The position numbers were made by a program, and so were the translations under genes. The notes below the pieces were generated by a model. The model was given only the letters and a program-made list of their open reading frames with translations. It was not told the DNA's origin and ran no database searches. Positions 103 through 10,191 of a DNA stretch of 10,191 bases are shown piece after piece; the stretch's first letter is position 1; every line of letters starts with the position of its first letter. The stretch comes from Dysgonamonadaceae bacterium (GTDB taxonomy: Bacteria; Bacteroidota; Bacteroidia; Bacteroidales; Azobacteroidaceae): assembly GCA_031256015.1 (NCBI GenBank), contig JAIRRK010000201.1:1-10191 (forward strand). The letters run 5' to 3'.

Positions 103-133
103 TTTGTGTATAAAAAATAAATGTATATATTTG
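103..133 (+). promoter_or_regulatory. Bacteroidetes-type promoter of the trp leader/operon
   Basis: A TTTG box at 103-106 and a TATATTTG box at 126-133 match the Bacteroidetes -33 (TTTG) and -7 (TAnnTTTG) elements. They are 19 bases apart, within the usual spacing for this sigma factor. Transcription would start at about 136-141, just before the leader peptide start at 155. Both boxes and the correct placement ahead of an attenuator make this convincing, although the start site itself is inferred. Confidence 0.75.
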
Positions 134-154: not shown

Positions 155-241
155 ATGATAATTCAATCAACTGATAATAATTTTTGGTGGTGGCGCTTAT
201 TCTCAAGCAAAAGAGTGAGTGGAATTGTCGTGCACTGTTAA
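155..241 (+). CDS. trpL: trp operon leader peptide (28 aa, three tandem Trp codons)
   Basis: This short reading frame starts with ATG at 155 and stops with TAA at 239-241. Residues 11-13 are Trp-Trp-Trp (TGG codons at 185-193), preceded by Asn-Asn-Phe and followed by Arg-Leu-Phe. Trp is the rarest residue in most proteins, so three in a row ahead of a trp operon is the hallmark of an attenuator peptide. The peptide probably has no function beyond being translated. A ribosome stalled at 185-193 for lack of charged tRNA-Trp would leave bases from about 215 onward free to pair. A ribosome reaching the stop codon would cover them. The start is A-rich with no clear Shine-Dalgarno, as is normal in this phylum. 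ATG 155 is the only ATG between the predicted transcription start and the Trp codons, and it is in frame with them. The upstream ATG at 121 is in another frame and stops at 172-174. Confidence 0.85.
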   Translation: MIIQSTDNNFWWWRLFSSKRVSGIVVHC

Positions 242-283
242 TTTAGGAGAAGTTCATATATATGCAAGGCCGGTTGTACTCAC
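215..283 (+). promoter_or_regulatory. predicted antiterminator hairpin of the trp attenuator
   Basis: Bases 215-234 can pair with 263-283. 215-220 (GTGAGT) pairs perfectly with 278-283 (ACTCAC), 231-234 (TGCA) pairs with 263-266, and the middle pairs imperfectly. I count about 14 Watson-Crick and 3 G-U pairs, with three mismatches and one bulged base. The 3' arm covers the whole 5' arm and loop of the terminator (266-281), so the two structures cannot coexist. The 5' arm lies 22 bases downstream of the last Trp codon and inside the leader reading frame, so ribosome position would decide which hairpin forms. I see no obvious 1:2 pause hairpin. The pairing was done by eye without energy calculation. 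Confidence 0.65.
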
Positions 284-300
284 AATCGGCCTTTTTTTTT
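266..300 (+). terminator. intrinsic terminator of the trp attenuator
   Basis: A 12-base-pair stem (266-277 with 282-293, one G-U pair) encloses the four-base loop ACTC and runs directly into nine T residues at 292-300. It sits 30 bases before the trpB start, after the leader peptide, so it would stop transcription before the operon when Trp is plentiful. It is the strongest terminator-like structure in the window. Its 5' arm and loop are also claimed by the antiterminator. Confidence 0.9.
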
Positions 301-330: not shown

Positions 331-1539
331 ATGCGAGAAACATTTCATGTAAACAACGATGGTTATTTCGGAGACTTCGGCGGAGCTTATATTCCCGAAA
401 TCCTCTATAACAACGTGGAAACGTTGCGAAATGCCTACAAAAAAATCATTAACGATACCCGGTTTCAACACGAGTACAACCGATTGCTTGCCGATTATGC
501 CGGGCGTCCTTCGCCACTCTATCATGCCCGCAGACTTTCGGAAAAGTATCGCTGTAAAATCTATCTGAAACGGGAAGATTTGAATCATACCGGCTCTCAT
601 AAGATAAACAATGCAATCGGACAAATTCTGCTGGCCCGAGAAATGGGTAAAACCCGCATCATAGCCGAAACCGGAGCCGGACAGCATGGTGTTGCCACAG
701 CTACGGTGTGCGCCCTGATGAATATGAAGTGCATCGTTTATATGGGTGAAACGGATGTGGAACGGCAACATCTGAATGTACAAAAAATGAAAATGCTCGG
801 AGCGGAAGTCGTTCCGGTCATCAGCGGAAACAGAACCCTGAAGGATGCAACCAACGAGGCTATCCGCGATTGGTGTTCTCATCCGGCCGATACGTACTAT
901 GTTATCGGCTCAACCGTGGGGCCGCATCCTTATCCCGATATGGTTGCCCGCCTGCAATCGGTAATCAGCAAGGAGATTAAAAAACAACTGACGGAAAAGG
1001 AACACCGAGAATATCCGGATTACCTTATTGCCTGTGTGGGCGGCGGAAGCAATGCCGCCGGGACAATCTACGAATACATGGATAACAGAGCGGTTCGTAT
1101 TCTTCTTGCCGAAGCAGGCGGAAAAGGAATCGATTCGGGAAAATCGGCCGCTACCATTCATCTGGGAACGACAGGAATTATTCACGGCGCAAAAACCTTA
1201 TTGATGCAAACCGAAGACGGACAAATAGAGGAACCGTACTCCATCTCGGCCGGATTGGATTACCCGGGAGTCGGACCGATGCACGCAAACATGGCTAAGC
1301 ATAAACGCTCGGAAGTTCTGGCCGTCGATGACGACGAGGCATTGGATGCCGCAATGGAATTAACACAACTGGAAGGAATCATCCCGGCACTGGAATCGGC
1401 TCATGCTTTGGGAATATTGAAGAAAAAACAATTCAACCCCGACGATGTGATTGTCTTATGCCTTTCCGGAAGAGGAGATAAAGATATGGAAACCTATATT
1501 AATACAACAAACAATCCTAAAATAACAACGAAGATATGA
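331..1539 (+). CDS. trpB: tryptophan synthase beta chain
   Basis: TrpB condenses indole with L-serine to give L-tryptophan in a PLP-dependent reaction, as the beta subunit of the cytoplasmic alpha2-beta2 complex with TrpA. At 402 residues it has the normal length of the TrpB1 type. The PLP-binding lysine is K91 in the HTGSHKINN motif, and the catalytic glutamate is E113 in AETGAGQHG. The cofactor phosphate loop GGGSN is at 237-241, and the C-terminal CLSGRGDKD motif is at 377-385. The start at 331 follows an A-rich stretch, lies 30 bases after the attenuator terminator, and gives the family N-terminus with [13 protein letters not shown] at 11-23. It is the first gene of the operon, whereas enterobacterial trp operons begin with trpE. 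Its stop overlaps the trpE start by four bases (ATGA), suggesting translational coupling. Expression is probably governed by the upstream attenuator. Confidence 0.97.
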
Positions 1540-2939
1540 AAAAGACAACTGTAAACGTACAAAGCAAGTCGATATTGGCCGACTTGCAAACGCCGGTGAG
1601 CATCTACCTGAAAGTTCGCGATGTTTATCCGGAATCGGTACTGCTGGAATCGTCCGACTATCACGGAAACGAAAACTCTTTCTCGTTTATCGGCATCGAC
1701 CCGCTCGCCCGGTTTGAAGTGACCGACCATCAAACGCAAATAACTTTCCCCGACCGCAGTGTCGAAAAAATACCGGCAGGGAATATACCTCAACTGCTAA
1801 ACGATTTCATTCACTCGTTCGAAATCAAAGAAAACCGCAATACAACCGGATTCAACGGTTTGTTCGGCTACACCTCTTACGATGCGGTACAATACTTCGA
1901 AGATATTAATCCGAAGAAGCCGACGCCTCCCGTTATTTCGGTTCCGGACATGGTTTATATCTTTTATCGATTCATTATTGTAGTCAATCATTTCAAGAAT
2001 GAAATGACAATCGTCGAAAATCAAATAGAAGGAGACGAAAGCCGACTGAATCACATTTCGGGAATTTTGAATAACCGCAATTATGCTTCCTATAACTTTT
2101 CGGTTAAGGGAGAAGAACAATCCTTTACTCCCGACTCCGGATACAAAGAGATGGTTAAAGAGGGAATCAAACACTGCAAACGGGGCGATGTTTTCCAAAT
2201 TGTTCTTTCGCGCTGTTATTCTCAAGCCTTTTCGGGCGATGACTTTAAAGTTTACCGGGCATTACGTTCCATCAATCCGTCGCCTTATTTATTCTATTTC
2301 GATTTCGGTTCGTTTCGTGTTTTCGGGTCCAGTCCGGAAATTCATTGCGGAATATCCGGAGGGAAAGCTTACATCGACCCGATAGCCGGAACTTTCAAAC
2401 GAACCGGAGAAGATAAAAAAGACAAAGAGCTGGCCCAAAAGTTACTGGAAGACCCGAAAGAAAACGCCGAACACGTGATGCTGGTCGATTTGGCACGAAA
2501 CGATTTAAGCAAAAACACTCGGAATGTACATCTCGGATTTTATAAAGAAATACAGTATTATTCTCATGTCATTCATTTGGTTTCGCGGGTGATAGGAGAA
2601 GTGAAAGAAGGAAGCAACACCATCAAGATATTCGCCGACACGTTTCCGGCGGGAACGCTTTCGGGAGCTCCCAAAGTAAGAGCGATGGAATTAATCCGAG
2701 ACATCGAGCCTCATAACAGAGGCATATACGGAGGTTGTATAGGCTATATCGGCTTGAACGGTGATTTGAATCAAGCCATAACCATCCGCACATTCGTAAG
2801 TAAAAACAACAAGCTCTACTATCAGGCCGGAGCCGGAATCGTTTCCCGTTCCAACGAAGAATCGGAACTTCAGGAAGTGAATAACAAATTGGGAGCATTA
2901 AAAAAAGCCATCGATGCTGCGGAAGAGATTATTAACTAA
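1536..2939 (+). CDS. trpE: anthranilate synthase component I
   Basis: TrpE converts chorismate to anthranilate using ammonia supplied by the TrpG glutaminase. This is the first committed step of Trp synthesis. The 467-residue protein has an N-terminal regulatory domain with LLESS at 36-40, the motif that carries the feedback Trp-binding serine in characterised TrpE. The C-terminal chorismate-binding domain spans about 200-460. It contains PIAGT at 282-286, GSSPE at 264-268, [10 protein letters not shown] at 315-324 and [10 protein letters not shown] at 371-380. The alanine in PIAGT fits anthranilate synthase rather than aminodeoxychorismate synthase (PabB), which usually has PIKGT. No GATase domain is fused; trpG follows separately. 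The start ATG at 1536 overlaps the trpB stop. Two control layers are likely: attenuation of the operon and Trp feedback on the enzyme. Confidence 0.95.
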
Positions 2940-2978: not shown

Positions 2979-3545
2979 ATGAAGATTCTTATTTTCGATA
3001 ACTACGATTCGTTCACGTATAACTTGGTTCATCTGGTTGGAGAACTCGGTTACGACAACACGGATGTATTTCGCAATAACAAAATCAGTCTCGAAGAGAT
3101 TGACCGATACGATAAAATCATTCTTTCTCCGGGACCGGGCATCCCCGAAGAGGCGGGTTTACTGCTTCCTTTAATCGAGCGGTATGCCGGTAAGAAAAGC
3201 ATTCTCGGAGTCTGCTTGGGACATCAGGCGATTGCTCAAAGTTTCGGAGGACAATTAATCAATCTGGAAGATGTTTATCACGGAGTTGCCACTCCGATAG
3301 AGATTGTATCAGGGGACTACATTTTCGAAACTTTACCGAAACGCCCTTTGGCAGGCAGGTATCACTCGTGGACGGTTGACAAGCATCGTTTCCCGAATGA
3401 ATTGGAAATCACCGCCACAGACGAAAACGGACAAATTATGGCATTGAAACATAAAACACACGACATTCACGGTGTTCAGTTTCATCCCGAATCAATTCTA
3501 ACTCCTGACGGAAAAGAAATAATCAAACAGTTTTTAAATCACTAA
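2979..3545 (+). CDS. trpG: anthranilate synthase component II (glutamine amidotransferase)
   Basis: TrpG hydrolyses glutamine and channels ammonia to TrpE. At 188 residues it is a stand-alone class I glutamine amidotransferase, with no TrpD fusion. Visible motifs are NYDSFTYN at 8-15, the oxyanion-region SPGPG at 50-54, and the nucleophile elbow GVCLGHQA with C79. The remaining triad residues are H169 and E171 in QFHPES. The start at 2979 gives the standard MKILIFDNYDSF N-terminus. It is the one gene of the operon with a longer upstream gap (39 bases), which holds a pure G/C run and a six-codon mini-ORF ending on its start codon. The same family includes PabA, and a dual role with PabB is possible but not shown here. 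Its place beside trpE supports the TrpG assignment. Confidence 0.95.
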   Translation: MKILIFDNYDSFTYNLVHLVGELGYDNTDVFRNNKISLEEIDRYDKIILSPGPGIPEEAGLLLPLIERYAGKKSILGVCLGHQAIAQSFGGQLINLEDVYHGVATPIEIVSGDYIFETLPKRPLAGRYHSWTVDKHRFPNELEITATDENGQIMALKHKTHDIHGVQFHPESILTPDGKEIIKQFLNH

Positions 3546-3550
3546 ATCAC

Positions 3551-4552
3551 ATGAAAGAAATATTAAGTCGTTTATTTGAACATCAATATTTGAATCGACA
3601 AGAAGCCAAAGCAATCTTGAGCAATATGGCTCAAGGAAAGTACAATGAGAGTCAGATTGCAGCTTTCATTACCGTTTATTTTATGCGCAGCATCAGTGTT
3701 GACGAGATACTGGGATTCAGAGATGCGCTGCTGGAAATGCGAGTTCCGGTCGAAGAATTAAAAGAGTATAATCCGGTCGATATTGTAGGCACGGGAGGAG
3801 ACGGAAAAAACACATTCAACATTTCAACGGCCGCTTGTTTCGTGACCGCCGGAGCCGGATATAAAGTGGTGAAACACGGAAATTATGGAGCAACATCAAT
3901 CAGTGGAGCCTCCAATGTAATGGAAGAACACGGTGTGAAATTCACTCAAGACATGAATATCCACAAACAATCCGTCGAGGAAACAAACATAGCTTATCTG
4001 CATGCGCCCCTTTTCAATTTGGCGTTAAAAACAGTGGCACCTGTCAGAAAATCGTTGGCCGTAAGGACTTTCTTCAATATTTTGGGGCCGATTGTCAATC
4101 CGATTATTCCCAAACGTCAGGTCTTGGGAGTGTACGATTTGAAAATGGCTCGCTTGTATAATTACATTTATCAGGAAAGCGGACACGATTTTTCCATTGT
4201 TCACAGCTTGGACGGATACGACGAGATTTCTCTTACCGATACATTCAAAATAATCAATAAGCACGAAGAAAGCATCTACAATCCCGAAGATTTGGGATTT
4301 AAGAAGATTGCTCCCGAAGAACTGTACGGAGGAAACAGTCCGAAAGAAGCCGCAAAAATATTTGACCGGGTTTTGAATAATCAGGCAACCGAAGCTCAAA
4401 AGAACGTCGTTATAATCAATGCGGCAACAGCCATTCAGACTTGCGATTCATCTTTCGACTTCAATACGTGTATTCAAAAAGCAAAAGAATCGTTGGAATC
4501 GGGAAAAGCCCTACAAACGCTTATCCGGTTCTTGGAAATAAACCGTCAATAA
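3551..4552 (+). CDS. trpD: anthranilate phosphoribosyltransferase
   Basis: TrpD transfers the phosphoribosyl group of PRPP to anthranilate, the second step of the pathway. The 333 residues match the usual stand-alone length. A helical N-terminal domain (about 1-70) precedes the nucleoside phosphorylase-like fold. The PRPP-binding loop GTGGDG is at 80-85 and NTFNIST at 87-93. KHGN at 108-111 leads into a glycine/serine-rich loop, and VRTFFNILGP is at 171-180. DE at 224-225 corresponds to the Mg-binding acidic pair. The KHGN loop continues as YGATSISGAS instead of the RSVSSKSGSAD type of many proteobacteria. I take this as lineage variation, not loss of function. It starts five bases after the trpG stop and ends one base before trpC. 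Confidence 0.95.
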   Translation: MKEILSRLFEHQYLNRQEAKAILSNMAQGKYNESQIAAFITVYFMRSISVDEILGFRDALLEMRVPVEELKEYNPVDIVGTGGDGKNTFNISTAACFVTAGAGYKVVKHGNYGATSISGASNVMEEHGVKFTQDMNIHKQSVEETNIAYLHAPLFNLALKTVAPVRKSLAVRTFFNILGPIVNPIIPKRQVLGVYDLKMARLYNYIYQESGHDFSIVHSLDGYDEISLTDTFKIINKHEESIYNPEDLGFKKIAPEELYGGNSPKEAAKIFDRVLNNQATEAQKNVVIINAATAIQTCDSSFDFNTCIQKAKESLESGKALQTLIRFLEINRQ

Positions 4553-4553
4553 G

Positions 4554-5339
4554 ATGAATATACTTGAAACAATTTGCGAAAACAAACACAAAGAAGTCGC
4601 CCAACAGAAAGAAGCCATTCCGTTGACTTACCTGAAAGGTTTATTAAACAGACAAAAGCGGGAAGTGATTTCATTCAAAAAAGCACTGTCCGAATCGGAA
4701 ACGGGAATCATCGCCGAGTTTAAACGGAAATCGCCGTCAAAAGGTCAGATTCATCCGAATGCTGATGTTGAATCTATCGTTTCCGGATACGAAAGAAACG
4801 GAGCGGCAGCTATTTCTTGTTTGACAGACAGCATGTTTTTCGGAGGGTCATTCAACGATTTTAAGATTGCTCGGAATACCATTTCTGCCGTTCCACTGCT
4901 TCGGAAAGATTTTATTGTGGACGAATATCAAGTTTACCAGTCGAAAGCAATCGGTGCCGACATTATTCTGCTGATTGCAGCTTGCCTTCATCCGGACCAA
5001 TCTTATCGATTTGCAAACATCGCTCACAGCTTGGAAATGGAAGTGTTGCTCGAAATTCACAACGAAGAAGAACTGGAACATATTCATCCGAATATAGATG
5101 TTGTGGGCATCAATAATCGTGATTTGAAAACATTCAAGACGGATATTCAGCATACGATTAATCTTTCAAAGAAGATTCCGGAATCATTTCTCAAAATATC
5201 GGAAAGCGGATTATCCGACCCTCAGATTATGATGCAATTACGTCCGGAAGGTTTCAAGGGATTTCTCATGGGAGAAACCTTTATGAAAACAGAGAATCCG
5301 GCGCAAACCTTGAACCGTTTTATAAAACAAATCAGATGA
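4554..5339 (+). CDS. trpC: indole-3-glycerol phosphate synthase
   Basis: TrpC closes the indole ring, converting carboxyphenylamino-deoxyribulose phosphate to indole-3-glycerol phosphate with loss of CO2 and water. At 261 residues it is a monofunctional TIM barrel, not fused to TrpF as in E. coli. Visible active-site residues are E55 and K57 in IAEFKRKSPSKG, and K118 in LLRKDFIVDEYQ (the general acid position). E167 is in LLEIHN, N188 in GINNRDL, and ISESG is at 215-219. The C-terminal phosphate site is GFLMGETFM at 236-244. It begins one base after the trpD stop and overlaps trpF by four bases (ATGA), indicating coupled translation. Confidence 0.96.
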   Translation: MNILETICENKHKEVAQQKEAIPLTYLKGLLNRQKREVISFKKALSESETGIIAEFKRKSPSKGQIHPNADVESIVSGYERNGAAAISCLTDSMFFGGSFNDFKIARNTISAVPLLRKDFIVDEYQVYQSKAIGADIILLIAACLHPDQSYRFANIAHSLEMEVLLEIHNEEELEHIHPNIDVVGINNRDLKTFKTDIQHTINLSKKIPESFLKISESGLSDPQIMMQLRPEGFKGFLMGETFMKTENPAQTLNRFIKQIR

Positions 5340-5953
5340 AGATAAAAGTTTGCGGAATGAAATATCCCGATAATATCAAAGAAGTGAATCAATTACCGAT
5401 TGATATGATGGGATTCGTATTTTATGATAAATCGCCTCGGTACATCGACAATTTATCTCCGGATGTAATGAAAACAATCAATCCGGAAATCCGGCGAACC
5501 GGTGTTTTTGTCGATGCTTCCATCGAGAAGATACAAGAAGCCGTTTATCGTTATTCGTTGGATATTGTTCAACTGCACGGAAATGAATCTCCGGAGTTTT
5601 GTCAATCGCTGAAACAGAACGACATTAAACTGATTAAAGCGTTCTCGATTGAAGTTCCCGAAGATTTTAATCCGACAAAGCTTTATGAAAACCAAATCGA
5701 TTATTTTCTGTTCGACACAAAAACCGCTCAATACGGAGGTTCCGGAAGGAAGTTCGACTGGGAAATCCTGTCCTTTTATCAAGGAAATATTCCTTTTATT
5801 TTAAGCGGAGGAATCAATGAAAGCGATACCGACAGGATTAAAAACATAAAGCATCCGGCATTCGCCGGAATCGATTTGAATAGTCGGTTTGAACTGTCTC
5901 CCGGTTTGAAAGACATAAAAAAATTAAACAAATTCGTTCAACATATTAAATAA
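5336..5953 (+). CDS. trpF: phosphoribosylanthranilate isomerase
   Basis: TrpF carries out the Amadori rearrangement of phosphoribosylanthranilate, the third pathway step. At 205 residues it is a monofunctional TIM barrel. The general base is C6 in KVCGM and the general acid D127 in FLFDTK. The phosphate-binding strands are LSGGI at 156-160 and GIDLNSRFE at 178-186. The latter differs from the more common GVDVSSGVE form, where a small Gly is replaced by Arg; this may be a lineage variant. The start codon overlaps the trpC stop, and trpA follows after six bases. The histidine-pathway relative HisA has different motifs and is excluded by context. Confidence 0.94.
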   Translation: MKIKVCGMKYPDNIKEVNQLPIDMMGFVFYDKSPRYIDNLSPDVMKTINPEIRRTGVFVDASIEKIQEAVYRYSLDIVQLHGNESPEFCQSLKQNDIKLIKAFSIEVPEDFNPTKLYENQIDYFLFDTKTAQYGGSGRKFDWEILSFYQGNIPFILSGGINESDTDRIKNIKHPAFAGIDLNSRFELSPGLKDIKKLNKFVQHIK

Positions 5954-5959
5954 TCCATT

Positions 5960-6733
5960 ATGAACAAGATAAATAAATTATTTCAAGAAAAACAAAAAGA
6001 GATTTTATCCATTTATTTCACGGCCGGATTTCCTCAATTAAACGACACAACCGAAATCATATCGGAATTACAGTCGGCCGGAATCGATTTAGTTGAAGTC
6101 GGGATTCCTTTTTCCGACCCGATGGCCGACGGACCGGCCATTCAGGAAAGCAGTGCAACGGCTCTCCGCAACGGAATGAACCTGAAAACACTGTTTAGTC
6201 AATTAGCTGCCGTGAAAGATAAAGTGAAAATTCCTCTTATCATGATGGGCTATCTCAATCCGATTATGCAGTACGGATTCGAAAAATTTTGCATGGATTG
6301 TCAAAACACCGGCATTTCGGGAATGATTATTCCGGACCTTCCGTTTAACGATTATCTGAAGGATTACAAAACCGTTACGGAAAAATACAATCTGAAAATG
6401 ATTATGCTGGTAACTCCCGAAACATCAGAAGAAAGAGTGCGGTTGATTGATGAAAATACCGATGGCTTTATTTATTTGGTTTCTTCGGCGTCCACAACAG
6501 GAGAACAAAAAAGCTTCGATGATAAAAAGCAGAACTATTTTCGGAAAATAAACCAAATGAGATTAAAGAATCCCTGTCTCATCGGATTTGGAATATCCAA
6601 CAAAGCAACCTTGCAATCAGCCTTCGACAATGCCTCCGGCGCCATTATCGGAAGTAAATTTATTCGTCTGCTATCTGAAAAGAAAAACATGAAAGAGGCC
6701 GTGCTTGAATTGAAACAATTGATATTAAAATAA
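5960..6733 (+). CDS. trpA: tryptophan synthase alpha chain
   Basis: TrpA cleaves indole-3-glycerol phosphate to indole and glyceraldehyde 3-phosphate and passes indole through the tunnel to TrpB. It is 257 residues long, slightly short of E. coli TrpA but complete. The catalytic residues E46 and D57 lie in [21 protein letters not shown] at 125-129 belongs to loop 2, and GFGISN at 209-214 is a phosphate-site motif. Loop 6 reads SSASTTG (175-181) where enterobacterial TrpA has SRAGVTG, so the Arg of that loop is replaced by Ser. The gene is last in the operon, far from its partner trpB which is first. No strong terminator follows it. Confidence 0.95.
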
Positions 6734-6846: not shown

Positions 6847-7734
6847 ATGAAAAAAAGAAGAAAACTTTCTCCCGGTACATTTATCAATGCAAGAGTTACG
6901 TCTACCGTCAGTATTACTTTTGTGCTGTTTATTTTTGGGTTGCTCATTCTTTTATTTCTCTTTGCCAATAAATTATCCCATGCCATTAAAGAACAGTTAA
7001 CGGTCGATATTATTCTAAGTGACAACATCACTGAAAGCCAAATAAGAAATCTGCAAAGAAAAATCAATGCGGCTCCCTTTTCTAAATCAACGGTTTATAT
7101 ATCCAAAGACGAAGCGTTGAAAAATCTGGAACCGGAATTGGGTGAAAATTCGCAAGGCTTTTTAGATGTCAATCCGTTGCCCTCCATCATTCAGATGAAT
7201 CTAAATTCGGAATATGTACATCCCGACAGCATCAAAGTAATAGAGCAGTTTTTGTCGCTTTACCCGAACGATATTACAGAAATTGAACATCGGAAAGAAT
7301 TAATGCAAAAACTGAACGAAAACACAACTAAAATCGGATTTGTCTTGATTCTTATTATAATACCCTTGTTGTTTATTTCTTTCGCTTTAATCAGCAATAC
7401 CATTCGATTAATGGTTTACTCCAAACGATTCATTATCTATACGATGCAATTGGTCGGAGCCAATAAAAGCTTTATCCGTAAACCGTTTATCGTATCGAAT
7501 ATATGGTCGGGATTAATAGCCGGATTAATAGCCGTAGGATTGCTGTACTGGCTGATATATTATATTTCAAACAGCATGGTTAATCAAATCGACGGATTAT
7601 TATTTGATATTAAAACCCTTGCAATCGTATTCGGAAGCGTTATTCTGTCGGGTGTCATTACTTCTATTTTAGCAACTTATCTTGCTGTAAATAAATACAT
7701 CAGTGCTAAAGTGGATGATCTTTACAGAATGTAA
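6847..7734 (+). CDS. ftsX: cell division protein FtsX
   Basis: FtsX is the membrane subunit of the FtsEX ABC-type complex, which couples the divisome to periplasmic peptidoglycan hydrolases. The 295-residue protein has the family layout. A basic cytoplasmic N-terminus (KKRRK) is followed by a first membrane helix at about 21-42. An extracytoplasmic domain at about 45-160 includes the NPLPSIIQM motif (109-117) typical of FtsX. Three more helices lie at about 163-187, 217-240 and 257-282. The MQLVGA motif at 200-205, between helices 2 and 3, is also typical. FtsE, the ATPase partner, is not in this window, so the genes are unlinked here. It appears to have its own promoter and heads the envelope block. 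Confidence 0.93.
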   Translation: MKKRRKLSPGTFINARVTSTVSITFVLFIFGLLILLFLFANKLSHAIKEQLTVDIILSDNITESQIRNLQRKINAAPFSKSTVYISKDEALKNLEPELGENSQGFLDVNPLPSIIQMNLNSEYVHPDSIKVIEQFLSLYPNDITEIEHRKELMQKLNENTTKIGFVLILIIIPLLFISFALISNTIRLMVYSKRFIIYTMQLVGANKSFIRKPFIVSNIWSGLIAGLIAVGLLYWLIYYISNSMVNQIDGLLFDIKTLAIVFGSVILSGVITSILATYLAVNKYISAKVDDLYRM

Positions 7735-7760
7735 ATAAAAACTCTAAATATTTATGATAA

Positions 7761-8015
7761 ATGAAAAATAATCAATATGCCTTCGGCAAAGAAAACTTTA
7801 TTCTTTTGGCTGTCTCTATCCTGATAATTATTATCGGATTCGTATTGTTATACGGAGGAAAAACAACCGAAGAAACCGGTTTCGATCCTCGTATTTTTGA
7901 CAAGAGGCGTTTATTAGTCGCTCCGATAGTTATTATGACCGGGTTTTTCTCCGTCATTTATGCGATACTGAAGAAACCGAAAGATACATCCAACACCAAA
8001 AATAAATTGTCTTAA
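7761..8015 (+). CDS. small two-helix membrane protein, DUF3098 type
   Basis: This 84-residue protein has no known function. It starts with a short polar segment containing FGKENF (8-13) and has two predicted membrane helices at about 13-31 and 51-69. Between them is a loop with [11 protein letters not shown] (41-51), and the tail is lysine-rich and polar. From memory, the layout and the FGKEN, FDPxIF and KKPK motifs match DUF3098, a family I know only from Bacteroidetes and mostly next to ftsX and uppP. It lies 26 bases after ftsX and its stop codon shares one base with the uppP start (TAATG), so translation with uppP is probably coupled. Its context suggests a role in envelope or division biology, but this is only inference. 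Confidence 0.85.
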
Positions 8016-8824
8016 TGGAAGAAATGACGTGGCTACAAGCCTTGATACTGGGAATTATACAAGGTTTTACGGAATATTTGCCCATCAGCAGCAGCGGACA
8101 CCTTGCAATTGGAAGCGCATTGTTCGGGTTGAGCGGAGAGGAAAACCTTACTTTCGCAGTGGCAGTTCATGCAGCCACGGTTTTAAGTACGCTGGTTGTG
8201 TTATGGAAAGAAATCGTAATCATTATTCAGGGAATATTCAAATTCAATTGGAATGAAGAAACACAATATTTCGCAAAAATCATTGTTTCCATGATACCGG
8301 TCGGTATTGTCGGCGTTTTCTTCAAAGACTACGTGGAAGATATTTTCGGAAGCGGACTCACTATTGTGGGAATCATGCTATTGGTTACGGCAGCCTTATT
8401 GCTGTTTTCGTATTACGCAAAACCCCGACCCAAAAAGAATATTTCCTTCAAAGACGCTTTGATTATCGGTTTATCGCAGGCATGTGCGGTTTTGCCCGGA
8501 TTATCGCGTTCAGGAGCTACCATTTCTACCGGGTTATTATTGGGAATCAAAAAAGAACGCATCGCCGAATTTTCTTTTTTGATGGTTATCATTCCCATCT
8601 TGGGAGAAGCTTTTCTCGACTTGTTAAAAGGAGGATTTTCTTCCGCCGAATCGGGTATCTCGGCCGGAGCTTTGACGATAGGATTCATCGCGGCATTTGT
8701 TTCCGGTGCCATCGCTTGTAAGTGGATGCTCAACATAGTCAAAAAAGGAAAATTAGTCTATTTTGCGTATTACTGTATTATTGCAGGTCTGACTATCACG
8801 GTTTTTTCGCTCTTTGGTAATTAA
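8015..8824 (+). CDS. uppP: undecaprenyl-diphosphate phosphatase (UppP/BacA)
   Basis: UppP removes a phosphate from undecaprenyl diphosphate to regenerate the lipid carrier for peptidoglycan and surface glycans. Overproduction of family members gives bacitracin resistance. The 269-residue integral membrane protein shows both signature regions. The first is [14 protein letters not shown] (16-29), with the (E/Q)xxxE pair as Q16 and E20 and the conserved serines of SSSGH. The second is PGLSRSGAT (161-169) with R165. About eight hydrophobic segments are visible. The family length in E. coli is 273. Start 8015 overlaps the preceding stop by one base, and truB begins two bases after its end, so it lies in the middle of a tight operon. 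Confidence 0.96.
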
Positions 8825-8826
8825 AT

Positions 8827-9507
8827 ATGGATTTTCAGAACGGAGAAATTTTGTATTTCAATAAGCCGCTTTATCTGACTTCTTTCGATTTAGTCAATAA
8901 AGTTCGATATAAGATTTGTCGCCGATTAAATATAAAAAAATTAAAGGTCGGTCATGCAGGTACGTTAGACCCTCTTGCAACAGGAGTAATGATTATCTGC
9001 ACGGGAAAGGCCACGAAAAGAATAGAAGAATTTCAATATCAAACAAAAGAATATGTTGCCACGCTTCGTTTAGGAGCAACAACTCCCTCGTTTGATTTGG
9101 AAACGGCAATTGACCGGCAATATGAAATAAATCATATTACAAAAAATTCGGTGGAGGAAACTCTTTCTAAATTTATCGGCCGAATCGAACAGATTCCGCC
9201 TGCTTTTTCCGCCTGCAAAATCAAAGGAGAAAGAGCGTACGAACTGGCAAGAAAAGGAATAGATGTTCAATTGAAACCCAAATTGTTGGTCATTGATGCT
9301 ATTGAATTATTGTCGTATAAACAAGAAGAAATAGAAATTCGTATCGTTTGCAGTAAAGGGACTTATATTCGAGCTTTGGCTCGCGATATAGGGCAAATGC
9401 TCGACTCCGGAGCGCATCTGATTGCCCTGAAACGAACCCGAATAGGAAAAATCACAGAGGACAATTGCATCGACATGGATACTTTTGATGAGATTTTAGA
9501 TAAATAA
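8827..9507 (+). CDS. truB: tRNA pseudouridine-55 synthase
   Basis: TruB isomerises uridine 55 in the T-psi-C loop of nearly all tRNAs. The catalytic aspartate is D48 in VGHAGTLDPLATG (41-53). The family's substrate-binding KP motif is at 13-14, and the later SKGTYIRALARDIG motif lies near residues 176-189. At 226 residues it is much shorter than E. coli TruB (314) because the sequence ends shortly after the catalytic core, leaving no room for a C-terminal PUA-like RNA-binding domain. This short form is, as I recall, usual in Bacteroidetes, so it is not a truncation. It starts two bases after uppP and is followed by queA after 15 bases. Confidence 0.95.
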   Translation: MDFQNGEILYFNKPLYLTSFDLVNKVRYKICRRLNIKKLKVGHAGTLDPLATGVMIICTGKATKRIEEFQYQTKEYVATLRLGATTPSFDLETAIDRQYEINHITKNSVEETLSKFIGRIEQIPPAFSACKIKGERAYELARKGIDVQLKPKLLVIDAIELLSYKQEEIEIRIVCSKGTYIRALARDIGQMLDSGAHLIALKRTRIGKITEDNCIDMDTFDEILDK

Positions 9508-9522
9508 AAACAATAATACAAA

Positions 9523-10191
9523 ATGAAACTTTCTAAATTTAGGTTTAATCTGCCTCAAGAATTGATAGCATCGCATCCCGCACCAAACAGGGATGAATCG
9601 AGATTGATGGTCATTCATCGTGATACAGGAAAAGTTGAACACAAAGTATTCAAGGATGTCCTCCACTATTTTAATGACCAAGATACTTTTGTCTTTAATG
9701 ATACGCTGGTTTTTCCCGCCCGACTCTACGGAAACAAGGAAAAAACAGGCGCAAGAATTGAAGTCTTTCTCCTGCGCGAGTTGAATGAAGAGTCCCGATT
9801 ATGGGACGTTTTAGTCGATCCCGCCCGTAAAATAAGAATAGGAAATAAACTTTATTTCGGAGAAGACGATTCGATAGTGGCTGAAGTAATTGATAATACC
9901 ACTTCGCGAGGAAGAACGTTACGCTTCCTCTATGACGGCCCTCACGACGAATTTAAAGCAGCATTGTTTGCGCAGGGAGAAACGCCTCTACCCATATACA
10001 TTAAAAGACAGACCCTTCCGGAAGATTCCGATCGGTATCAAACCATTTTTGCCAAATACGAAGGAGCCGTTGCTGCTCCCGCCGCTTCGTTGCATTTCAG
10101 TCGCGAACTGCTGAAACGTTTGGAAATCAAAGGTTGCCAACTCGCTTTCGTTACCATGCACTCCGGATTGGGAAATTTCCGCGATATTGAT
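9523..10191 (+). CDS. queA: S-adenosylmethionine:tRNA ribosyltransferase-isomerase, 5' part
   Basis: QueA transfers and isomerises the ribosyl group of S-adenosylmethionine onto 7-aminomethyl-7-deazaguanine in tRNA, giving epoxyqueuosine at the wobble position. The frame is open from ATG 9523 to the right edge (223 codons, no stop), about two thirds of the family length. The N-terminus ([18 protein letters not shown]), [28 protein letters not shown] and a GLGNFRDID segment at the edge all match QueA. The start is A-rich and 15 bases after the truB stop. One oddity is the motif normally read as APTAGLHF, which here is APAASLHF (bases 10075-10098), with two substitutions. The neighbouring MHSGLGNF also deviates slightly from the usual H(V/A)GLG(T/N)F. 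A diverged paralogue cannot be ruled out. Confidence 0.93.

Follow-up and report, generated by a model that had tools for sequence, protein, structure and literature searches.

The window, by which we mean the whole stretch of DNA analysed (contig G000:C54, 10,191 bases; the source genome totals 1.64 Mb over 225 contigs and is 81.6% complete), carries a tryptophan operon preceded by a short leader. The features are as follows.

103..106, + strand: possible -33 promoter element TTTG, 19 nt 5' of the -7 element (sequence)
126..133, + strand: probable -7 element TATATTTG, of the form TAnnTTTG (sequence)
155..241, + strand: leader peptide ORF MIIQSTDNNFWWWRLFSSKRVSGIVVHC, 28 codons from the ATG at 155-157 (direct reading; Trp-run leaders in relatives)
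185..193, + strand: three Trp codons (TGG), the proposed ribosome stall site (direct reading)
194..203, + strand: arm 1 of the predicted 1:2 hairpin, pairing with 212-221 (folding; 92.1% of cells paired in 14 genus-type leaders)
212..221, + strand: arm 2, which the 1:2 hairpin (212-221) shares with the antiterminator (215-221) (folding, alignments)
215..234, + strand: 5' side of the predicted antiterminator, pairing with 263-283 (folding)
239..241, + strand: leader stop codon TAA, 24 nt past the first base of the GTGAG of arm 2
263..283, + strand: 3' side of the predicted antiterminator, made up of the terminator 5' arm and loop plus two bases of the 3' arm
266..293, + strand: intrinsic terminator hairpin of 12 pairs with the loop ACTC at 278-281 (folding)
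292..300, + strand: nine-T run, the first two T also being in the stem (direct reading)
331..1539, + strand: trpB, first gene of the putatively regulated operon (TIGR00263, over cut-off)
1536..2939, + strand: trpE, second gene of the operon (family searches)
2979..3545, + strand: trpG (family searches)
3551..4552, + strand: trpD (family searches)
4554..5339, + strand: trpC (family searches)
5336..5953, + strand: trpF (family searches)
5960..6733, + strand: trpA, last gene of the operon (family searches)

The gene order 3' of the leader is thus trpB-E-G-D-C-F-A, starting 30 bp past the attenuator, and the seven enzymes contain 3 Trp in 2,113 residues, compared with 3 in 28 for the leader peptide. 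The remainder of the window 3' of trpA (6847-10191) carries apparent ftsX, a small ORF, uppP, truB and queA, all closely spaced on the same strand and named by reading their translations.

A preliminary description of this DNA had proposed the 28-codon frame with three TGG codons at 185-193 and a stop at 239-241, and these coordinates match on direct reading, as does its terminator at 266-293 followed by nine T; the antiterminator arms that it gave, 215-234 and 263-283, are likewise as described, their exact pairs now having been computed. It was mistaken in reporting no obvious 1:2 pause hairpin: 194-203 and 212-221 form ten pairs (three of them G-U), and on folding of 194-300 this hairpin begins at the base directly after the last Trp codon. 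As modelled, the element is composed of 1:2, 2:3 and 3:4 helices. The terminator is exceptionally stable (-18.3 kcal/mol for 252-302, z -5.9, with 0/200 shuffles as stable). The antiterminator fold of 206-290 is unexceptional alone (z -1.1, 25/200 shuffles as stable), the duplex of its arms gives p 0.155 against shuffles, and the case for the predicted antiterminator is a comparative one, not one of its own stability. On 206-300 the calculated energies are -18.9 kcal/mol for the antiterminator, -18.3 kcal/mol for the terminator alone and -24.4 kcal/mol for the best fold, i.e. the terminator plus a small stem.

Comparison with relatives employed 107 upstream regions: from 120 trpB upstream regions, two that were too short (L026 and L096) and 18 duplicates were removed to leave 100 distinct regions, to which seven (six 5' of trpE, plus L149) were added. 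A Trp-run ORF plus terminator is present in 85/107; among the 22 regions in which no leader was detected, L012, L037, L082 and L111 show Trp-run ORFs and are probably detection failures, and the W-rich ORFs seen in L010 and L074 seem to be spurious. Across the 85 leaders, the nine key bases encode WWW in 65, WWR in 17 and WRW in 3. The window has a single copy of the motif TGGTGGTGG (expected number 0.02; at least one copy in 4/200 shuffles), but the whole source genome has seven, versus five for the reversed pattern, so the Trp run by itself proves nothing; it is its position that constitutes the evidence. Upstream, TAnnTTTG is found within 130 nt 5' of the Trp run in 74/82 leaders with enough upstream sequence, versus 8.4% of base-shuffled regions. 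We call TTTG and TAnnTTTG promoter elements on the basis of the Bacteroidota promoter consensus, which would place a promoter at 103-133 and a transcription start near 140.

Two alignments were made, A1, comprising 41 of the 85 leaders, none of them from the window's genus (leaders of the genus type and near duplicates were removed by hand, and no contig in A1 shares its length with a genus contig that gives a strong leader match), and A2, comprising 14 of the 19 genus-type leaders (including L040, recorded as Odoribacteraceae, and omitting L087, L104, L131, L136 and L149, which have another leader type). In A1 the terminator has 97.3% of cells paired and two-sided change in 11/12 pairs, a level reached by 0/500 shuffles. 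The apical helix of the antiterminator, in which arm 2 (typically GTCGTGAG) pairs with the terminator loop and 3' arm (CTCACGAC), has 93.0% of cells paired and two-sided change in 4/8 pairs; its covariation score is reached by 0/500 shuffles, its two-sided pair count by 37 and its pair-type count by 448, and at one pair A-U replaces G-C in 14/41 sequences. Within the genus, the A2 terminator is paired in 100% of cells with two-sided change in 6/12 pairs, the antiterminator pairs are nearly invariant and carry no covariation information, and the score of the 1:2 hairpin, reached by 18/500 shuffles, lends it weak support. Outside the genus, then, the aligned sequences point to strong covariation for the terminator and moderate covariation for the antiterminator. 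Energies of individual leaders are less informative, the arm duplex having a median z of -1.9 against shuffles (39/85 below -2) and the 1:2 region being weaker still (median z -0.8, 12/85 below -2), and cross-sequence tests were relied on instead. When arms were swapped among 61 non-redundant leaders (kinship uncorrected), own arms paired better for 1:2, 2:3 and 3:4 alike, with z values of -8.3 for 1:2, -8.0 for arm 2 with the loop and 3' arm, -3.7 for the basal part with the 5' arm and -20.8 for the terminator. Both the Trp run and the alternative pairing, on which the preliminary description had built its claim, are therefore kept in relatives, and the claim comes through this check.

These comparisons also bear on the possibility that the hairpin is a constitutive terminator, e.g. 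one ending an upstream transcription unit, next to a fortuitous ORF and with no switching. In its favour, the terminator is by far the strongest signal there, the antiterminator alone being no stabler than shuffles; however, the Trp run and arm 2 have been kept along with the terminator across the order, arm 2 covaries with the terminator loop and 3' arm, and a promoter-like element lies 5' of the leader in 74/82 cases, such that we consider a purely constitutive terminator very improbable.

Ribosome-dependent attenuation was modelled by folding the leader with a ribosome whose footprint was assumed to reach from 15 nt behind the first base of the A site to 14 nt beyond it, either with only the RNA downstream allowed to fold or, for the window alone, in a two-sided model in which RNA behind and ahead of the ribosome may pair. 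When the RNA reaches 288, and whichever of the three Trp codons occupies the A site, the downstream-only model gives the antiterminator at 0.99-1.00 and the terminator at 0.00, and the two-sided model gives the antiterminator at 0.91-1.00. Once the A site has come to 209 or a later position, the stop included, the downstream-only model, in which arm 2 is shut out by construction in the stop state, gives the terminator at 0.94-0.96 at the same RNA length; in the two-sided model with the ribosome at the stop, covering 224-253, the values are 0.99 for 1:2, 0.00 for the antiterminator and 0.91-0.93 for the terminator. The preliminary description had the ribosome at the stop covering 215-234. With the assumed footprint of approximately 224-253 only part of that segment would be covered, but the exclusion of the antiterminator itself is upheld: in the two-sided fold it is shut out because 1:2 (0.99) re-forms behind the ribosome and the basal part is covered. 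In the model, 1:2 in the window can thus replace the cover that the ribosome itself would provide where the stop sits in arm 2.

That position is the usual one, the stop lying inside arm 2 in 59 of the 85 leaders (often as the TGA of GTGAG), after it in 24 and before it in 2, and the window, with its stop beyond arm 2, differs from the 59. Late-stop frames recur in relatives, with L007, L084, L086 and L151 reading RVS and stopping soon after, and the frames of L042, L058, L079, L087 and L149 extending about as far as that of the window; the late stop is for this reason judged unlikely to be a sequencing error.

With the ribosome far upstream (A site at 158-179) and RNA to 288, the antiterminator in the downstream-only model is at 0.60-0.85 and the terminator at 0.13-0.37. 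With no ribosome, the terminator is at 0.96 at RNA 288 if the 5' end is at 140 or 155 and at 0.23 if it is at 165, and the role of 1:2 consequently hinges on the 5' end assumed. Once the RNA extends to 300, the terminator prevails at equilibrium in all the ribosome states that were folded (0.92-0.97), implying that antitermination must be kinetic, being decided before the terminator is finished. Stalls from Phe 182 to Phe 200 have the same outcome as stalls on the Trp codons in the downstream-only model, which leaves room for a response not confined to Trp. Applied to all 85 leaders, the downstream-only model (RNA 5 nt short of the terminator end; a leader being scored as switching if the terminator is below 0.5 with the ribosome stalled and above 0.5 with it at the stop) predicts switching for 56/85, versus 5.3% of 850 shuffled-spacer controls. 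The other 29, including the genus members L003, L004, L084, L085, L087, L145 and L151, may fail through the fault of a crude model or may have weaker control.

A leader peptide could also act as a tnaC-like arrest peptide, in which free Trp or the nascent-peptide sequence, rather than a lack of charged tRNA-Trp, stalls the ribosome and causes read-through. The short Trp-containing peptide 5' of a Trp-related operon would suit such a mechanism, as would the partial recurrence of residues past the Trp run (QL..KS in many leaders). Yet the operon is biosynthetic, for which induction by Trp has the wrong sign, an intrinsic terminator is present, and the non-Trp residues vary among genera (WWWHSQL, WWWRLFF, WWRYLQL). 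Arm 1, the pairing partner of arm 2, moreover encodes some of these residues, and the Trp residues themselves lie in a run, fitting codon reading; nascent-peptide arrest therefore appears highly unlikely.

In terms of homology, a covariance model (R1), built from A1 with terminator pairs only, matches 182-300 of the window at 60.7 bits (E 3.3e-12, R1 E-values being rough), the next best match in the window's own genome having 30.3 bits. Chance origin of the element was considered and rejected, given this match to a model built without the window's genus. The Rfam Bacteroid-trp model, RF01692, gives no match to the whole window at its cut-off, nor to 1-600 up to E 10, and the window holds no match at cut-off to any Rfam family, the best matches (Qrr 22.3, Trp_leader 22 and L20_leader 20.5 bits) all being far below. 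A different Trp sensor acting on the leader (TrpR, TRAP, a T-box or a riboswitch), for which we found nothing in favour, appears very unlikely, with no Rfam family at cut-off in the window, no match for TrpR (PF01371) in a search of the source genome (82% complete) and no need in any of these systems for a translated Trp-run ORF.

The window copy is nevertheless homologous to the Bacteroid-trp leaders. The rows of R1 include RF01692-positive leaders (L113-L115 and others) and R1 matches the window, and on these sequence grounds we regard the leader as a divergent, unannotated homologue of the RF01692 leaders that lies below that model's threshold. When 13 further loci were scanned, L004, from the same genus, was the one to attain the gathering score of RF01692 (50 against 49 bits). 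Among 198 genomes drawn from the order, R1 has matches at E <=0.001 in 94 and RF01692 in 16, all within the 94; this is a comparison of sensitivity in which R1 contains some of the sequences concerned and weak matches may be other leaders or mere terminators. A Trp-run ORF is present in every one of the best 29 R1 matches fetched from these genomes (29/29; window excluded, at least nine of them shared with A1), and a trp gene lies within 700 nt in 28/29 and 949 nt away in the other; 21 of them have trpB as the first trp gene, 7 have trpE and 1 has trpD. A scan of viral contigs for trpB gave four stretches matching the pattern, none of which encodes a relative.

The position of the leader within the genus follows the trp genes. 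At E <=1e-7, R1 matches 18 of 38 genus genomes, with 20 matches in all, of which 12 precede trpB, 7 (in 6 genomes) trpE and 1 trpD. The leader heads trpE or trpD, with trpB lacking a leader, in G004, G008, G011 and G020; in G031 (L131) trpB sits 5' of the leader; in G022 a search for trpB found none; and G018 has a second trp set with its own leader 5' of trpB. The leader is thus found at the head of whichever trp gene comes first, be it trpB, trpE or trpD. All 18 leader-bearing genomes have a trpE match and the other 20 comprise 10 with and 10 without one (G030, with E 9.5e-6 only, being counted as without), gene absences being soft in these incomplete genomes. The trp operon itself has been broken up in several members of the genus (L175 (G008:C66), L136, L142, L145, L151, L131 and L139), where the leader heads the trpE- or trpD-led piece. 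Separately, a divergent Trp leader, MIIKNLTANWWWRDSDLKRWIR, with a terminator was observed 5' of a TrpB2-like gene at L179 and at L191 (G230:C32 near 9074), G230 being one of the 10 genus genomes without a trpE match; the 500 nt upstream of the trpB2 of the window's own genome (L002) hold no such leader or terminator. Elsewhere, paired R1 matches lie close together on one strand (G039:C131:3148 and 3290; G216:C46:21146 and 21289; G161:C131:13495 and 15466), and may be tandem or double leaders.

The E. coli trp leader has 1:2, 2:3 and 3:4 helices. The window's element resembles the enterobacterial Trp_leader (RF00513) in having the Trp run directly 5' of arm 1, the same three hairpins and the same logic; it scores 22 bits against that family, compared with a gathering score of 41. 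It differs in that its stop lies beyond arm 2, its antiterminator includes the terminator loop and the start of the 3' arm, and its first gene is trpB. Relevant comparative work is said to have been carried out by Vitreschak in 2004 and by Lopatovskaya in 2010 (the latter as cited in PMC4833913).

The kind of element is already known, having been catalogued for Bacteroidetes in 2010 as Bacteroid-trp, Rfam RF01692. Weinberg 2010 (PMC2864571) lists it as an RNA ('y') that is cis-regulatory ('y') and not a switch ('n'), in Bacteroidetes, and PMC6414381 describes it as a leader that encodes a peptide enriched in Trp and is conserved 5' of the Flavobacterium psychrophilum trp operon. A transcriptome study of F. 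psychrophilum, another member of the Bacteroidota, reports strong signs of attenuation by leader peptides upstream of amino-acid operons (PMC9723704); another family is concerned there, with pheA and hisG elements that lack Rfam hits being named, and no mention of the window's trp leader was found. No experimental study of Bacteroid-trp was found in the open-licence PMC literature. Like the window's leader, Bacteroid-trp lies 5' of trp genes in Bacteroidota, with trpB adjoining the hit in 10 of 12 RF01692 loci fetched; the window copy differs in falling below the RF01692 cut-off.

Further candidate attenuators were observed. In the same genome, L155:1430-1560 (G000:C169 near 3112) holds a probable his attenuator, with a leader MIYPAHIHHHSE containing His-His-His and a terminator directly 5' of hisG (PF01634, TIGR00070); an Rfam scan of this leader gave no hit. 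At L156:1440-1604 (G000:C140 near 6580) a Phe/Tyr-rich leader, MSKFYFTYSFYYFYFSKKVRQDFV, and a terminator lie 5' of a prephenate dehydratase gene (PF00800), and FYFTYSFFYFYF-type leaders precede a gene with the same N-terminus as that enzyme in eight of the 20 loci retrieved for weak R1 matches in the genus (L193, L195, L196, L197, L204, L206, L207 and L210). L208 also has a leader of the Phe/Tyr type, but a different gene was found after it. Five Phe/Tyr-type leader loci scanned against Rfam gave no hit. A probable leu attenuator, with an Ile/Leu-rich leader (YIILLGLGILL) and a terminator 5' of leuA (TIGR00973), is present at L161:1460-1663 (G000:C219 near 3165); with an R1 E of only 0.6, it was recognised by reading.

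The window's leader has the makings of a classical attenuator, i.e. an ORF with codons for the relevant amino acid, a terminator before the first gene, a conserved antiterminator exclusive with it, and a 1:2 hairpin at the regulatory codons. We put the probability that 155-300 is a ribosome-dependent transcription attenuator of the classical type for tryptophan at roughly 93%; the conserved Trp-run leader, the comparatively supported alternative pairings and the trp operon downstream all support this proposal, as first made in the preliminary description. RNA polymerase would start near 140 and a ribosome would translate the leader from 155. When charged tRNA-Trp is scarce, the ribosome would stall at 185-193, covering arm 1 (194-203) and freeing arm 2, such that 215-234 could pair with 263-283 before the terminator is complete and polymerase would read into trpB-E-G-D-C-F-A. 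When tRNA-Trp is plentiful, the ribosome would reach 239-241, with arm 2 shut in 1:2 behind it and the rest of the antiterminator covered; with the antiterminator blocked, the terminator at 266-293 would form and transcription would stop near 300.

More tentatively, and at somewhat less than even odds, one ancestral trp attenuator may have held its place in front of the trp genes while the operon broke up, with trpB, trpE or trpD first. In the Bacteroidales design proposed here, arm 2 would carry the stop and pair with the terminator loop and 3' arm, whereas in the window's lineage the frame would pass arm 2, and shut-off would come from 1:2 re-forming behind the ribosome, rather than from a ribosome sitting on arm 2.

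The overall results suggest that the element predicted in 2010 as Bacteroid-trp looks like a complete ribosome attenuator with three hairpins, and that it is probably commoner than the Rfam model detects (94 versus 16 of 198 genomes). Judging by the his, phe and leu leaders of the window's own genome, attenuation may be a general means by which this lineage controls amino-acid synthesis, and a genus in which the leader has been kept, moved or is missing along with the trp genes offers a natural test of the worth of attenuation.
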